From Candidatus Binataceae bacterium (GTDB taxonomy: Bacteria; Desulfobacterota; Binatia; Binatales; Binataceae), in the NCBI GenBank assembly GCA_036495685.1, contig DASXMJ010000056.1, forward strand, positions 1-44,802: a stretch of 44,802 bases of DNA. Reading direction: 5' to 3'. The first letter of the stretch is position 1. Each line of letters starts with the position of its first letter. Shown here piece by piece: positions 2,531 through 8,060 of this stretch. Below the pieces are notes generated by a model. That model searched no databases. It saw nothing but the letters and a program-made list of their open reading frames with translations, and was not told where the DNA came from. Position numbers and translations under genes: made by a program.

Positions 2531-4468
2531 TCAACCGCGTTGTTCGGTCCGACCCAACAAAGCTGCGATGGCGGTGGTCAACTCGCTCGCATCGATCGGC
2601 TTCGCCATATGCATCTGGTACCCCGCCAGTAGCGCGCGGCGGCGATCTTCGGGACGGGCCAGAGCAGTTAGTGCGATCGCGGGCAACGCTTGGTAGCTGT
2701 AGCCGCGCGCGCGCACTTCACGAATCAACGCGTAGCCGTCCAGCTCTGGCATTCCGATATCACTGACCAGCACCTGCGGGGTACTCCGTTCGAACTGCGC
2801 CAGCGCCGATTTGACATTGAAGGCGGTCTTCACTATCGCACCGGTTTCCTCCAGGATGCGCGACAGCACAGCGCAAGTGTCAGTGTCATCGTCAACGACC
2901 AGGACGCGAACCCCTTCCAGACGTGCAAACTCGGGCGCCCTTGGCGACTCCGCGTTGAGAGGATCGCGAAAGGTTGCGGCTACCGGTAGTGTCACAGTGA
3001 ATTTCGCGCCCTGCCCTATGCCCGCGCTCGACGCACTCACGGTTCCGCCGTGCATCTCCACCAGGTGTTTGACGATGGCAAGTCCGAGTCCCAGCCCGCC
3101 GTGACCGTGGTTGCTCTTGGTGTCACCTTGACGGAAGCGATCGAACAGGTATGGGAGCAACTCGGGCCTGATTCCCTGACCATTGTCGGCGACGTTGATC
3201 TCGACGTGAGATTCCACGCGTTCGAGTCTGAGGTCGATATTTCCCCCGCTAGGCGTGAACTTGATCGCGTTGTTCACCAGGTTCCAGACCACTTGCTGGA
3301 GCCGTCCCGCATCGCCGGAGATCAGGCCGGCATTGACGTCGAACCAGCTCTGCAGCTTGAGTTGTTTCGCATCGATGGCGGGTGACAGTCCCTCCAGGGC
3401 GCCCTTCATCATGGCGGCTAGGTCGACCGGTCTGATCTCGAGCCGCAGTTTACCGGAGACGATGGCAGATACATCGAGCAAATCCGAAATTAGCTGCGCC
3501 TGGACTTTGGTATTGCGTTCGATTGCGGACAAGCCGCGCTCGATCTGCACCCGGTCATCAGTGTCGTGCTGCAGCCGTTGGGTCCAAAGCAGGATCGAGT
3601 TCAGCGGGGTGCGCAATTCGTGGGACAGGGTGCTCAGGAATTCATCCTTGAGGTAGTTGGCGCGCTCGGCTTCGGCGCGGGCGCTGCGCTCGCTGGCAAG
3701 CAGGTCATTGCGTTCGCTTTCAAACCGCATGCGGTCGGAGATGTCGGTAATGACGGCCAGCCTGACCCCGCGCAACGAATGCGCCGAAATGTGCCATTCC
3801 AGATGGATCAGCTGGCCGTCGGGCCCTGCCATCGCAAAGGTTCCGCGCCAGGTTCCGGTCTCTTCCAGCGAGCGTTGGATTTCGTGCGAATCGGAGGGCC
3901 CTCCCGGCGGAATGAACGAGAGCAAGGGAAAGCCGATGATCTCCTCGCGCTTACGGCCTAACACCCCGCACATTGCAGGGTTCACCTCCAGGTAGTTCAG
4001 GCGCTCATCGAGCAACACGATCCCGATGAAGGCATTCTCGAAAACGGTCCTGAATTTCGCTTCGCTCTTGTGCATCTCCTCCTCCGCGCGACGCGCGCGG
4101 AGAAATGCCTTGATCGTCGCGATCAACACCGAGGGCTCGATTGGATGCGTGAGGTAACCATCAGCGCCGGAGTCCAGTCCGTGCGCTTTGTCCAAATCGG
4201 TTACGAAGGTGGCCGAGACGTGGATGATCGGTATTCGCGCCGACCGCGGATCCTGCCGCAGGCGGCGGCAGACTTCAAACCCATGGAGGTCGGGCAGGTT
4301 CACATCGAGCAGCATTAAGTCGATATCTTCAAGCGCCAGGTCGAACGCTTCCTCGCCGCTGGTTCCTTCAGCGACGTCAAACCCCGCCGCACGCAGCACC
4401 CGCGAAGTCGAATAAAGGGTGGCGTGGTTGTCGTCCACCACCGCCACGCGTGGGGTTGGATCAGACAT
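2531..4468 (-). CDS. Hybrid histidine kinase, REC-PAS-HisKA-HATPase-REC
   Basis: A 645-residue soluble hybrid kinase, the last gene of the stressosome operon. Order of domains: receiver 1 (residues 7-125, acidic pair Asp12/13, phospho-acceptor Asp55), PAS (about 133-245), dimerisation/phospho-acceptor domain with His283 in SHELRTP, ATPase with N-box Asn400 and the DNGQGI and GLGLGL boxes (428-463), and receiver 2 (519-640, Asp570, Lys623). There are no membrane segments, so the signal must come from a partner or the cytoplasm. Receiver 1 has THP where most receivers have a KP with the conserved lysine (here His108), a variant that may slow or change switching. It overlaps the preceding kinase gene by 8 bases, implying coupled translation. 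No separate output regulator is in the window. Confidence 0.92.
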   Translation of the reverse strand: MSDPTPRVAVVDDNHATLYSTSRVLRAAGFDVAEGTSGEEAFDLALEDIDLMLLDVNLPDLHGFEVCRRLRQDPRSARIPIIHVSATFVTDLDKAHGLDSGADGYLTHPIEPSVLIATIKAFLRARRAEEEMHKSEAKFRTVFENAFIGIVLLDERLNYLEVNPAMCGVLGRKREEIIGFPLLSFIPPGGPSDSHEIQRSLEETGTWRGTFAMAGPDGQLIHLEWHISAHSLRGVRLAVITDISDRMRFESERNDLLASERSARAEAERANYLKDEFLSTLSHELRTPLNSILLWTQRLQHDTDDRVQIERGLSAIERNTKVQAQLISDLLDVSAIVSGKLRLEIRPVDLAAMMKGALEGLSPAIDAKQLKLQSWFDVNAGLISGDAGRLQQVVWNLVNNAIKFTPSGGNIDLRLERVESHVEINVADNGQGIRPELLPYLFDRFRQGDTKSNHGHGGLGLGLAIVKHLVEMHGGTVSASSAGIGQGAKFTVTLPVAATFRDPLNAESPRAPEFARLEGVRVLVVDDDTDTCAVLSRILEETGAIVKTAFNVKSALAQFERSTPQVLVSDIGMPELDGYALIREVRARGYSYQALPAIALTALARPEDRRRALLAGYQMHMAKPIDASELTTAIAALLGRTEQRG

Positions 4469-5408
4469 CTTTGACCCTCGCCCCCCTCGCAGTTTCGCTT
4501 ACCGTTTGCGAAGAATCGCCTGAAGTAAATTGAATCGGAAGGGTGACGTAAAAAATCGACCCCTGGCCGAGTTCGCTTTCGACCCCTACACTCCCACCGA
4601 GGAGTTCCGCCAGCCGTTTGCTGAGCGCCAAACCGAGGCCTACGCCCTGCACGCGACGCTGGATTCGGGAATCGACCTGTACGAAATCGCGAAACAATGC
4701 GCCCAGATGCTCTCGCGCAATGCCGATGCCGGTATCCGCGACCGCGAATTTCACCCAGCCTGGAGCGTGGCTCTCCGCTGATACTCGCACCTCACCCCGG
4801 CGGGTGAACTTAAGCGCGTTGGAAATGAAGTTGCGCAGAATTTGCCCGATTTTTTTGTCATCCGAGAAGGCTCGCGGGAGACCAACCGGCTCCTCGAACA
4901 CCAGCCCGACCTGAGGATTGTTGAGCATCGGCTTGAACATTCCGCGAAGCGCGGCGAACAGGTCGACCAGCTCAAACCATGCCGGCGAAATCGAAATCCG
5001 CCCTGCCTCGATCTTGGCTAGGTCGAGCAAATCGTTCACCATCTCGCTCAGTTCCTGGGCGGAACTTTGGATGAAACCGATCTGTTTCTCCTGCTCGGGG
5101 GTCAGCGGTCCATCGAGCCGATCGAGGAGGATTCGGGTCAAGCTGCGGATCGAGCCAAGCGGAGTACGAAACTCGTGGCTCATATACGATAGGAAGCGGC
5201 TTTTTAAATCCGAGGCTTCCCGCAACTGCTGCGCCTTATCGTCTAGTTCCGCATAGAGCGCGACGACCCCGCTGTTGGTCTCCGCGAGTTCGCGGCTCAG
5301 GGACTCGACTTGCTCAACTCGCTGGGCCAACTCGGCTTTCAACGCATCATGCTCGGCGCGCATGGGCTCGCTCTCTTTTACGCTCAGTTCGTCGTCACAC
5401 ATGTGCAT
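4461..5408 (-). CDS. Soluble sensor histidine kinase with coiled-coil N-terminus
   Basis: About 315 residues, no membrane segment. An N-terminal coiled coil (about residues 15-70) leads straight into the phospho-acceptor domain (SHEFRTP, histidine near residue 78) and an ATPase domain with N-box Asn near 197, DTGIG near 225 and GVGLGL near 255. It lacks any receiver or PAS domain, so its input probably comes through the coiled coil from another protein of the stressosome operon. The frame opens with TTG at 5411, directly before ATG at 5408, with another ATG at 5402; I take 5408. The start overlaps the stop of the upstream phosphatase gene, and its own end overlaps the hybrid kinase. It may pass phosphate to a receiver of the hybrid kinase. 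Confidence 0.9.
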   Translation of the reverse strand: MHMCDDELSVKESEPMRAEHDALKAELAQRVEQVESLSRELAETNSGVVALYAELDDKAQQLREASDLKSRFLSYMSHEFRTPLGSIRSLTRILLDRLDGPLTPEQEKQIGFIQSSAQELSEMVNDLLDLAKIEAGRISISPAWFELVDLFAALRGMFKPMLNNPQVGLVFEEPVGLPRAFSDDKKIGQILRNFISNALKFTRRGEVRVSAESHAPGWVKFAVADTGIGIAREHLGALFRDFVQVDSRIQRRVQGVGLGLALSKRLAELLGGSVGVESELGQGSIFYVTLPIQFTSGDSSQTVSETARGARVKDV

Positions 5409-6423
5409 CAAACAGGCTCGCGGTCAGGCGTCCCGCCAGGACGGTTGCATCGTCACGGGTGCGCTTCGCGTCGCGGTACACTATGCCGGCGATGACCGCG
5501 ACATCGGTCCGCGCCAGTCCCGGATAGTTCCCAAGGTTCCAACGTTCGTTCAAGCCGTCCGAATGCATCACCAGGAGATCACCCTCCTGCCATCGGTAGT
5601 CAAATTGTTGCACCTTGCGCAGACCCGCGCCCACAATTCCGCCATGTGAAACCAGCGACTGCTGCCGGTTCGCGGCGAGATTTACGATCCGCGCCGCAAT
5701 GTTGCCCACTCCTGCGTAATGAAGCTCTCGCGCGCCAAGATCAATCTCCGCAATCGCCAGCGCCGCGCCCCGCGTCGAGCGCATTGCCGCATCTGCCGCC
5801 GCTAGATAGTCGGCAGGGGTCGGAAACCAGTGTTCGCTGAAAACCTCTAAAGCTTGCCCGGCGGCAGCCGCCGCGAGCGGACCGTGCCCCAGTCCATCGA
5901 CGACAATTGCGGCGAGTTTGTTGCCCACCTGGCGCAAGCTCCACGCATCTCCGCACTCGGTCTCGCCCGGTGCCGGAACGCTGATCGCAGAAAATTCACA
6001 GGGACCCGGGTGAGGTCCGCCGCCCCGAACGCGCGACATTACCACGCTTCCCGCGGGCTGCCTTGAGTTGATATCGAAGTCGGTGGACAGACGGCGTACT
6101 GCGCCCAGTCCACATCCCCGCGTCCCGCCCCGCGAGTAGCCGTCCGCAAGGCAGACGCTCACATCGTCGATTCCCGGGCCTCGATCGAGAGCGATTATCT
6201 CAAGACCCGGTGCGGTTTCGTCCGGAAGCAAGCGCAACACAATTTCGCCACCCTGGGCATGCGCGAGCAGATTGGTCGCAAGTTCGGTGACGATCAGCGG
6301 GACCTTGCCCAATTCGGCTGGCGGGAGCTTTGCGCGCTCGGCCATTTGCGTGGAAATGCGCCGCGCTTCACCGACCGAGCTACGGTCATGAATCTCGATA
6401 GATCGATGCTGATGAACCGCCAT
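5395..6423 (-). CDS. RsbT-like ATPase fused to SpoIIE/RsbX-type phosphatase
   Basis: About 342 residues in two domains. The N-terminal part (10-133) is a GHKL anti-sigma-type serine kinase domain with N-box (ELATN, Asn near 51), DRGPGI near 80 and GCGLGA near 104. The C-terminal part (about 145-340) is a PP2C-type phosphatase of the SpoIIE/RsbX group with metal-site aspartates in CGDAW, VVDGLGHG, HSDGLNE and RDDATV. In known stressosomes RsbX removes phosphate from RsbR and RsbS to reset the complex; that is the likely role here. The extra RsbT-like domain makes the protein a possible kinase/phosphatase for the same serine or threonine sites. The start is ATG 6423 just after a TTG, 7 bases from the end of rsbT. 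Confidence 0.88.
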   Translation of the reverse strand: MAVHQHRSIEIHDRSSVGEARRISTQMAERAKLPPAELGKVPLIVTELATNLLAHAQGGEIVLRLLPDETAPGLEIIALDRGPGIDDVSVCLADGYSRGGTRGCGLGAVRRLSTDFDINSRQPAGSVVMSRVRGGGPHPGPCEFSAISVPAPGETECGDAWSLRQVGNKLAAIVVDGLGHGPLAAAAAGQALEVFSEHWFPTPADYLAAADAAMRSTRGAALAIAEIDLGARELHYAGVGNIAARIVNLAANRQQSLVSHGGIVGAGLRKVQQFDYRWQEGDLLVMHSDGLNERWNLGNYPGLARTDVAVIAGIVYRDAKRTRDDATVLAGRLTASLFDAHV

Positions 6424-6430
6424 CAATGGA

Positions 6431-6835
6431 TCATTTCCATCGGGTTATAATCACTGTAGTCCCAACCCCCGGTTTGGAGACCAGTTCGAATTCATTGACC
6501 AGTCGTTTCGCGCCCGGCAAGCCCAAACCCAGTCCGCTGCCGGTCGTCCAACCATCCTTCATGGCGAGCTTGGTATCTTCGATTCCGGGACCGCTGTCGT
6601 TAAAGGTGAGCCGCAAGCCCTGACGTCCGTTTTCGGCCACCGTTTCCCACACCATGGTTCCTCCGCCGCCATGGACGAGAGCATTGCGGGCCAACTCGCT
6701 CGCCGCCGTCACCAGCTTGGTCTGATCGACGATGGTGAAGCCTAGTCCGCGAGCGGCGGAGCGGATCGCCTGCCGCGCGAGGACGACATCTTGCTCACGG
6801 ACCAGCGGCAATGCTTCACTTTTTGACGGGACCAT
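6431..6835 (-). CDS. rsbT: RsbT, stressosome serine/threonine kinase
   Basis: A 134-residue GHKL-type ATPase of the anti-sigma serine kinase family. N-box is SELARNALVHGGG (Asn51), ATP-lid motifs are DSGPGI (80-85) and GSGLGLGL (99-106). In the known pathway RsbT is held by the RsbR-RsbS complex, phosphorylates both on stress, and is then released to switch on a partner. In Bacillus the partner is RsbU; no RsbU is present here, so the released kinase must act on something else, perhaps the histidine kinases encoded downstream. The ATG lies inside the end of rsbS (20-base overlap), a sign of tight coupling. Confidence 0.92.
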   Translation of the reverse strand: MVPSKSEALPLVREQDVVLARQAIRSAARGLGFTIVDQTKLVTAASELARNALVHGGGGTMVWETVAENGRQGLRLTFNDSGPGIEDTKLAMKDGWTTGSGLGLGLPGAKRLVNEFELVSKPGVGTTVIITRWK

Positions 6836-7196
6836 TTCTGGAATCCTGTGACGCGTTTAGCATCGCCATTCCGCGCTCCACGTCGAGCGCGGTCATCACA
6901 CCCTGGAGCGTGAGTCCCAGCTCGACCAGAGTTATCGCGACCGCGGGTTGCATTCCGACCACCACGGTACCGGCGTCGAGAATCCGTGACATTGCGGAGA
7001 TATTGCTGATCGTCCTGCCTATGAAAGAGTCCACGATCTCGAGCGCTGATATATCGATCAGCACACCGTGCGCGTGGGTTTTCTCGATCATCCCGGTCAG
7101 GTCTTCCTGAAGCTGAATCGCGACTCGATCGTCCATCTCCACCTGAATGGTAACCAGCAGAAACGGACCCATACGAATAATTGGAATTCTTTCCAT
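6816..7196 (-). CDS. rsbS: RsbS, stressosome scaffold STAS protein
   Basis: A 126-residue single STAS domain. The segment IDISALEIVDSFIGRTI holds Ser57, which fits the serine of Bacillus RsbS phosphorylated by RsbT. The rest (TVVVGMQPAVAITLVELGL) is typical of the RsbS/RsbR STAS core. RsbS forms the pseudo-icosahedral stressosome with RsbR and traps RsbT. The gene starts 9 bases after rsbR and overlaps rsbT by 20 bases. The C-terminal tail (residues 113-126) is short and polar. Confident identification from motif, length and order of neighbours. Confidence 0.93.
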   Translation of the reverse strand: MERIPIIRMGPFLLVTIQVEMDDRVAIQLQEDLTGMIEKTHAHGVLIDISALEIVDSFIGRTISNISAMSRILDAGTVVVGMQPAVAITLVELGLTLQGVMTALDVERGMAMLNASQDSRNGPVKK

Positions 7197-7205
7197 GCTT
7201 GGCCA

Positions 7206-8060
7206 TCAATGCTGGGTGTTAACGATCGACAGTCCGGATAGTTTGAGGGCGAGCCCGAGCGCATCTGCCAGCGTCGCCTTGGTAGTCACTCCCTGCAGGT
7301 CGATGCCTAGATGAACGATGGTCTGCGCAATTTGCGGTCGAATTCCGCTGATGATGCAATCCGCACCCATCATCCGAATGGCGGTTACGGTCTTGAGCAG
7401 ATGTTGGGCAGTCTGGGTATCTACCGTGGGCACTCCGGTGATGTCGATGATCGCGGTGCCCGAACCGGTCTCGACGATTCGCTGGAGCAGCGTTTCCATG
7501 ACTACCTGCGTGCGCGCGCTGTCCAGCGTGCCGATGATGGGGAGCGCGAGAATTCCTTCCCACAACTTGACCACCGGCGTCGACAGTTCAAGCATTTCCT
7601 GCTGTTGGCGCCCAATAACCTCTTCGCGCGCTTTCTGGAAGGTCTTGACCGTGTGCATTCCGAGCTTGTCGATCAGCTCGGTCGTGCTCCACACTTCGTC
7701 GGCCAGCAGCTGCGCGTCTTTGCCGAGTTCTTTGCGCAGGCGCTCGAAGAGTGGTTTCTTTAAAGAAAAGATAAAGGTGGCCGTCTGGTCCGACGTAAAT
7801 CCCTGCATTGCTCGCGAGCGAGAGACATCCTTCAAAAATTCCAGGATTGGCACCCAAGCCTTGCTTTCAATGCTCTCAATGCCGTCGGCCGAAGCCGCCT
7901 GCAGGAGGCCAAGAAACTCACGCGTCTGGGTTGACAACTCCGACTCGCTGATTCGGAGGTCGCCGTTGAGCCTCTTTGTCAAATCCTTCATCCACTCAGC
8001 CTGAAGGTCTACGGTGTATTTCTTGATAATTGCCGGCGCTTTAGATTTTGCGATTGCCAT
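7206..8060 (-). CDS. rsbR: RsbR-type stressosome sensor, N-terminal RsbRD-like domain plus STAS
   Basis: A 284-residue cytoplasmic protein and first gene of the operon. The N-terminal half (about 10-155) is all-helical and resembles the RsbRD-type sensory domain, not the haem-free globin of classical RsbRA. A linker (155-165) leads to a STAS domain (165-278) that includes IIDITGVPTVDTQTAQHLL. Thr215 in VDT lines up with the RsbT target threonine (T205 in Bacillus RsbR), and the Thr178 region with the second site. An excellent ribosome binding site (GGAGGAGG, 8 bases before the ATG) supports the start. Only one RsbR paralogue is present in the window; many genomes hold several with other sensors. 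Confidence 0.9.
   Translation of the reverse strand: MAIAKSKAPAIIKKYTVDLQAEWMKDLTKRLNGDLRISESELSTQTREFLGLLQAASADGIESIESKAWVPILEFLKDVSRSRAMQGFTSDQTATFIFSLKKPLFERLRKELGKDAQLLADEVWSTTELIDKLGMHTVKTFQKAREEVIGRQQQEMLELSTPVVKLWEGILALPIIGTLDSARTQVVMETLLQRIVETGSGTAIIDITGVPTVDTQTAQHLLKTVTAIRMMGADCIISGIRPQIAQTIVHLGIDLQGVTTKATLADALGLALKLSGLSIVNTQH

Follow-up and report, generated by a model that had tools for sequence, protein, structure and literature searches.

In the window, by which we mean the whole 44,802-nucleotide stretch of Candidatus Binataceae DNA analysed here, the minus-strand gene at positions 5395 to 6423 encodes a 342-residue protein in which a GHKL kinase-fold domain precedes an RsbX-type PP2C phosphatase domain (open reading frame, Pfam and AlphaFold2). 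Comparison with relatives indicates that, as far as sequence can tell, this fusion is the standard phosphatase of RsbR-RsbS-RsbT (R-S-T) modules whose RsbR is of the RsbRD_N type, in at least eight phyla, and that it is not special to this operon. With about even confidence, we read the protein as an enzyme of RsbX type that resets a stressosome complete with RsbR, RsbS and RsbT, and that would also bring a second ATP-using kinase-fold module to bear on the same STAS proteins. Its catalytic activity and substrates, and the direction and trigger of any switch, we infer. The simplest part of the original prediction, that a GHKL domain and a phosphatase share one chain here, is borne out by an open reading frame running from an ATG at 6423 to a TGA ending at 5395, and by Pfam hits over cut-off for both domains.

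The fusion gene lies in a compact operon, all on the minus strand, with the order rsbR-rsbS-rsbT-fusion-histidine kinase-hybrid histidine kinase, adjacent genes overlapping or standing about 10 bases apart at most. The rsbR gene (7206 to 8060) encodes RsbRD_N and STAS domains (PF14361, E 4e-21; aligned with RsbR 7b0u), rsbS (6816 to 7196) encodes a STAS scaffold protein matching RsbS 6qcm (E 6e-32), and rsbT (6431 to 6835) encodes a stand-alone GHKL switch kinase of 134 residues (PF02518 and PF13581), in a slot between rsbS and the fusion gene that is conserved across the loci of relatives. HK1 (4461 to 5408), which starts inside the 3' end of the fusion gene, encodes a histidine kinase with HisKA and HATPase_c domains by Pfam and an N-terminal coil, ELAETNSGVVALYAELDDKA, the motif of which is common to relatives; the hybrid histidine kinase (2531 to 4468) reads REC-PAS-HisKA-HATPase_c-REC in a domain search. 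Residue S57 of RsbS aligns with S56 of Listeria RsbS, and S181, T215 and T247 of RsbR align with T175, T209 and T241 of Listeria RsbR; all four Listeria residues are known or conserved sites. The phosphorylatable residues by which a stressosome is recognised are kept in both RsbR and RsbS, with RsbT encoded beside them. A separate RsbT upstream of the fusion had been predicted correctly. Two kinase domains serving one STAS scaffold had been predicted as well; the two GHKL domains are there, but the STAS proteins are also two, RsbS and RsbR, rather than a single scaffold protein.

The C-terminal half of the fusion (residues ~140-334; 5422 to 6006, minus strand) is an RsbX-type PP2C (SpoIIE) domain. 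Pfam places SpoIIE (PF07228) at residues 169-330 with E 3e-15, well over the curated cut-off, and the acidic residues of the metal site, D159, D176, D289, D324 and D325, are present in 93 of 93 relatives. Searched against all solved structures, the family profile matched the RsbX proteins of Moorella (3zt9, E 4e-28) and B. subtilis (3w40, E 1e-22), with SpoIIE at ~1e-12, and fold comparison gave Z 28.1 at 1.7 Å for 3zt9 and Z 24.9 at 2.3 Å for 3w40. By profile and predicted fold alike, the PP2C half is far closer to RsbX than to SpoIIE or other PP2C domains. It is encoded together with rsbR, rsbS and rsbT and its metal-binding Asp residues are intact, as in RsbX-type phosphatases, but that type is defined as a single-domain protein and this one has an N-terminal GHKL domain, so we file it as a fused RsbX-like variant and not as a classical RsbX. 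No specific NCBIfam family scored over its cut-off for the fusion protein.

RsbT phosphorylates RsbR and RsbS and leaves, and RsbX resets them (PMC9237108; PMC9237128). In the operon studied here, RsbT would likewise phosphorylate RsbR and RsbS and then depart, and the PP2C half should strip those phosphates from RsbS and RsbR, since their sites align with the known or conserved Listeria sites. The genome holds a single copy of RsbR and only one other SpoIIE domain, in a 715-residue frame on another contig, which leaves the fusion as its only RsbX-like phosphatase found; because of this, together with the RsbX matches and the invariant metal site, we think it very probable that the PP2C half resets the one stressosome found in this genome. 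The 715-residue SpoIIE frame (G000:C214:23453-25630; L138, L140) lies near a stand-alone HATPase_c_2 kinase in a 146-residue frame, and the pair is probably a separate RsbU/RsbW-like partner-switching set.

We considered the possibility that a frame or assembly error had caused two genes to be read as one. The source assembly is a draft of 245 contigs, and in one relative (G017) the frame is broken near residue 80, but the same single open frame recurs in 93 independent loci, finished plasmids and chromosomes included. We give an artefact practically no credence, and the 93 loci rule out a chance fusion in the same way. The broken frame (L005, G017:C168) belongs to a same-family relative and may reflect either a genuine frameshift or faulty assembly. 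The AlphaFold2 model of the full chain, for which the alignment was used without its plasmid-derived rows, is a confident single unit (mean pLDDT 92.7, pTM 0.92), and the gap between the two domain hits is short in relatives, with a median of 14 residues.

The N-terminal half (residues ~6-133; 6025 to 6408, minus strand) is a HATPase_c_2/GHKL domain, detected by Pfam (PF13581) at residues 16-129 with E 5e-13, well over the curated cut-off. Residues 2-135 of the model superpose on SpoIIAB (1l0o) with Z 17.5 over 128 residues at 2.1 Å, indicating a SpoIIAB-like fold. The N-box and ATP-lid motifs had been described as intact, and they are so throughout an alignment of 93 fused domains: E47 and N51 of the N-box (residues 43-59; 6247 to 6297, minus strand), D80-x-G82-x-G84 of the G1 box (6172 to 6186, minus strand) and G103-x-G105 of the ATP lid or G2 region (residues 94-107; 6103 to 6144, minus strand) are all invariant, as is R21, while D94 and G95 of the lid are conserved at 99%. 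A decayed pseudokinase was rejected on the invariance of these active-site residues. The invariant presumed catalytic Glu and Mg-binding Asn favour a fused domain that still uses ATP.

Residue R21 aligns with R20 of SpoIIAB, which touches both the STAS partner and the sigma factor. Arginine is found at this position in 100% of fused domains, 99% of RsbT proteins and 100% of the RsbT-type domains fused to histidine kinases (HK-fused). A further 22 stand-alone kinases of the phylum lack it and have Ser or Ala there, or a gap; the shared arginine favours contact between the fused GHKL domain and a STAS protein. The surroundings of the N-box read TAASELARN in RsbT and mostly IVVTELATN in the fusion, and the lid differs from that of RsbT too, for which reason the substrate of the fused domain may differ from that of RsbT. 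A comparison of key residues with RsbT, SpoIIAB and RsbX had been proposed as a check, and it found the kinase active site and R21 kept and the PP2C metal site RsbX-like.

We lean slightly towards a GHKL half that is catalytically active on a STAS protein. It would then be the second ATP-dependent module of kinase fold to work on these STAS proteins, most likely as a kinase, and the chain could drive scaffold phosphorylation in either direction according to its state. Against a second kinase, RsbT already provides one, so that another is not required, and the RsbX of globin-type modules functions without a GHKL domain (PMC9237108). Conserved ATP-site residues, moreover, are not proof of protein-kinase activity, as a nucleotide-gated docking domain could retain them. 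The main rival to our reading is a role in docking only, with the GHKL half binding the STAS surface in an ATP-dependent manner, competing with RsbT for its site and delivering the phosphatase while phosphorylating nothing. Such a role would agree with an R21 that is invariant whether the domain is fused to the phosphatase, free or fused to a histidine kinase, yet is not so in other kinases, and with the compact two-domain unit predicted by the model and its short interdomain gap. The kinase interface of SpoIIAA is also much larger than its phosphatase interface (PMC11418112), so a kinase-fold anchor would raise affinity. The presumed catalytic E47, however, is kept in 93 of 93 fused domains, a stricter conservation than docking by itself should call for, and single-domain RsbX exists without any anchor; we consider docking alone rather unlikely, and retain the reading in which the GHKL half is an active module on the STAS proteins.

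A scan of species genomes returned fusions at all of the best 80 loci, although these were chosen as full-length matches and the 80 of 80 is thus partly a product of selection; gene order was not selected. The 80 loci come from eight phyla, namely Pseudomonadota, Cyanobacteriota, Acidobacteriota, Planctomycetota, Gemmatimonadota, Myxococcota and Bacteroidota together with one archaeal MAG contig, and plasmid records add fusions from Deinococcus and Streptomyces. Two of the loci are in metagenome bins labelled Methanocalculus, an archaeon (L066), and Klebsiella pneumoniae (L056); their stressosome operons resemble those of environmental bacteria, and the labels are probably binning errors. The R-S-T genes are directly upstream of the fusion in 90 of 90 loci with at least ~1.1 kb of upstream sequence, the remaining five of the 95 loci ending at a sequence edge before the R-S-T region, and a histidine kinase gene follows the fusion in most loci. 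Every one of the 84 RsbR proteins scanned belongs to the RsbRD_N type. The fused RsbX keeps this company in each of the 84 loci (alignment A2), whereas the one globin-type module that was read (L135) has a single-domain RsbX; a rule tying RsbR sensor type to phosphatase type is possible, from a sample that is not unbiased. The original prediction would have lost its point if the fusion proved universal and already characterised. It is universal within the RsbRD_N module type, but we found no experimental characterisation of it. Our literature search likewise found no described RsbT-RsbX fusion, although an earlier mention in the main reviews of R-S-T modules is possible.

Among near relatives the operon is patchily distributed: a match that spans most of the fusion occurs in 3 of 57 genomes, in one of which a frameshift breaks it, and the one same-genus genome gave no match to it. 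In GHKL-domain trees the fused domains cluster together and the RsbT proteins make up a second group, which contains or adjoins the HK-fused domains; branch support is modest, at 58-76. The fused domains fall outside the RsbT group, in which RsbT orthologues would be placed. A topology that unites fused and free domains is compatible with the data (p-AU 0.67), and the fused, free and HK-fused domains may be ordered in more than one way at the deepest branches. The domain had been called RsbT-like, which suits its GHKL fold and active-site residues but applies only loosely to a group that stands apart from RsbT. Recent duplication of the neighbouring rsbT was considered and rejected, as the fused domains cluster across phyla and away from their own RsbT. 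The sequences point to a fusion that is old and is no local copy of the adjacent rsbT. No relatives suggesting a phage origin were found in viral contigs.

The separate grouping of the fused domain would also suit a role on the output side, in which the GHKL half would serve the downstream histidine kinases as a partner-switching module, perhaps by competing with RsbT over the coil of HK1, and would so couple reset to output. The histidine kinase gene that follows the fusion in most operons, with its conserved coil motif, is in keeping with this, and RsbT of B. subtilis switches on its target through the ordering of a linker of this sort (PMC12143880). Some operons with different genes downstream nevertheless keep the fused domain, as in Streptomyces, where a second SpoIIE phosphatase takes that place, and we judge an output-side role quite improbable beside action on the STAS proteins themselves.

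The downstream kinases deserve attention in their own right. In 67 loci (within L025-L104; e.g. L054, L063, L090 and L093), the histidine kinase after the fusion starts with a third RsbT-type GHKL domain, in which the N-box E and N are kept and the 'DG' of the lid is replaced; a conserved coil, ELE[DE]TNRGVVALYAELD, usually separates this domain from HisKA. HK1 of the window has no such N-terminal domain and begins at the coil, a short form that is also found in L003, L020, L046, L057, L069 and L079. The N-terminus of the downstream kinase in Vibrio gave no convincing GHKL domain (best 3 bits). RsbT of B. subtilis activates RsbU through a linker of this kind, and by analogy the HK1 coil could be a target of RsbT. 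It is tempting to speculate that RsbRD_N-type stressosomes are three-kinase machines, in which the free RsbT, the phosphatase-fused domain and the mostly present HK-fused domain, all with an ATP site and the STAS-contact Arg, would compete for one STAS scaffold, with release, reset and output as exclusive states of occupancy, but we think this unlikely. At the level of the whole operon, the HK-fused RsbT-type domain with its conserved coil is a more interesting lead than the fusion itself.

The gene in the window is one more copy of a widespread and conserved design, and mostly ordinary. Stressosome reset and signalling beyond Bacillus and Listeria are largely open questions, however, and most of the modules studied have a single-domain RsbX. 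That in RsbRD_N modules from many phyla the phosphatase is always paired with a kinase-fold domain whose active site is intact raises the question of whether the reset enzyme also writes the mark. Carriers of the fusion include culturable bacteria, among them Deinococcus radiodurans, Paraburkholderia, Phaeobacter and Nostoc.

Several known systems share parts of this arrangement. The RsbX proteins of B. subtilis (3w40) and Moorella thermoacetica (3zt9) resemble it in their PP2C domain, metal-binding Asp pattern, fold and place in the R-S-T module, but are single-domain proteins of ~190-200 residues, while the fusion has a GHKL domain ahead of its PP2C domain. The same domain order, length and neighbours are seen in proteins from the R-S-T operons of Paraburkholderia, Sphingomonas, Alloyangia and Streptomyces, for which NCBI uses the name 'ATP-binding SpoIIE family protein phosphatase', and in proteins that go under other names in Deinococcus, Xanthomonas, Variovorax and Phaeobacter; these are 34-46% identical to the fusion in the window, and we found none among them with an experimentally tested function. 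With RsbT and SpoIIAB the fused domains share the GHKL fold, the E/N/D active site and R21, but they form a tree group of their own. The globin-type RSTX module of Vibrio has the equivalent gene order R-S-T-X-HK, but its RsbR is of the protoglobin type and its RsbX is a single-domain protein of 194 residues (one module, on a Vibrio plasmid), in agreement with the single-domain RsbX described for globin-type modules in a study of Vibrio vulnificus (PMC9237108).

The original prediction had offered a bifunctional switch or a tether for the phosphatase as alternatives; both are compatible with the invariance of E47 and N51 and with R21, but this operon shares the arrangement with many others, and chains joining a kinase to a PP2C phosphatase and acting on STAS proteins have been characterised elsewhere (PMC3610818, PMC6482189). 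SypE of Vibrio fischeri has an N-terminal GHKL serine kinase and a C-terminal PP2C domain in one chain with a STAS target; its kinase domain requires N52, the N-box Asn, and promotes phosphorylation of SypA, and the chain acts as kinase or phosphatase (PMC3610818). SypE differs in its central REC domain, its single STAS partner SypA and the absence of a stressosome. HsbR of P. aeruginosa and CrsR of Shewanella also combine PP2C and GHKL kinase domains in one chain and both phosphorylate and dephosphorylate a STAS protein (PMC6482189), but in these the order is REC-PP2C-kinase, the kinase domain doubles as an anti-sigma factor, and there is no stressosome.
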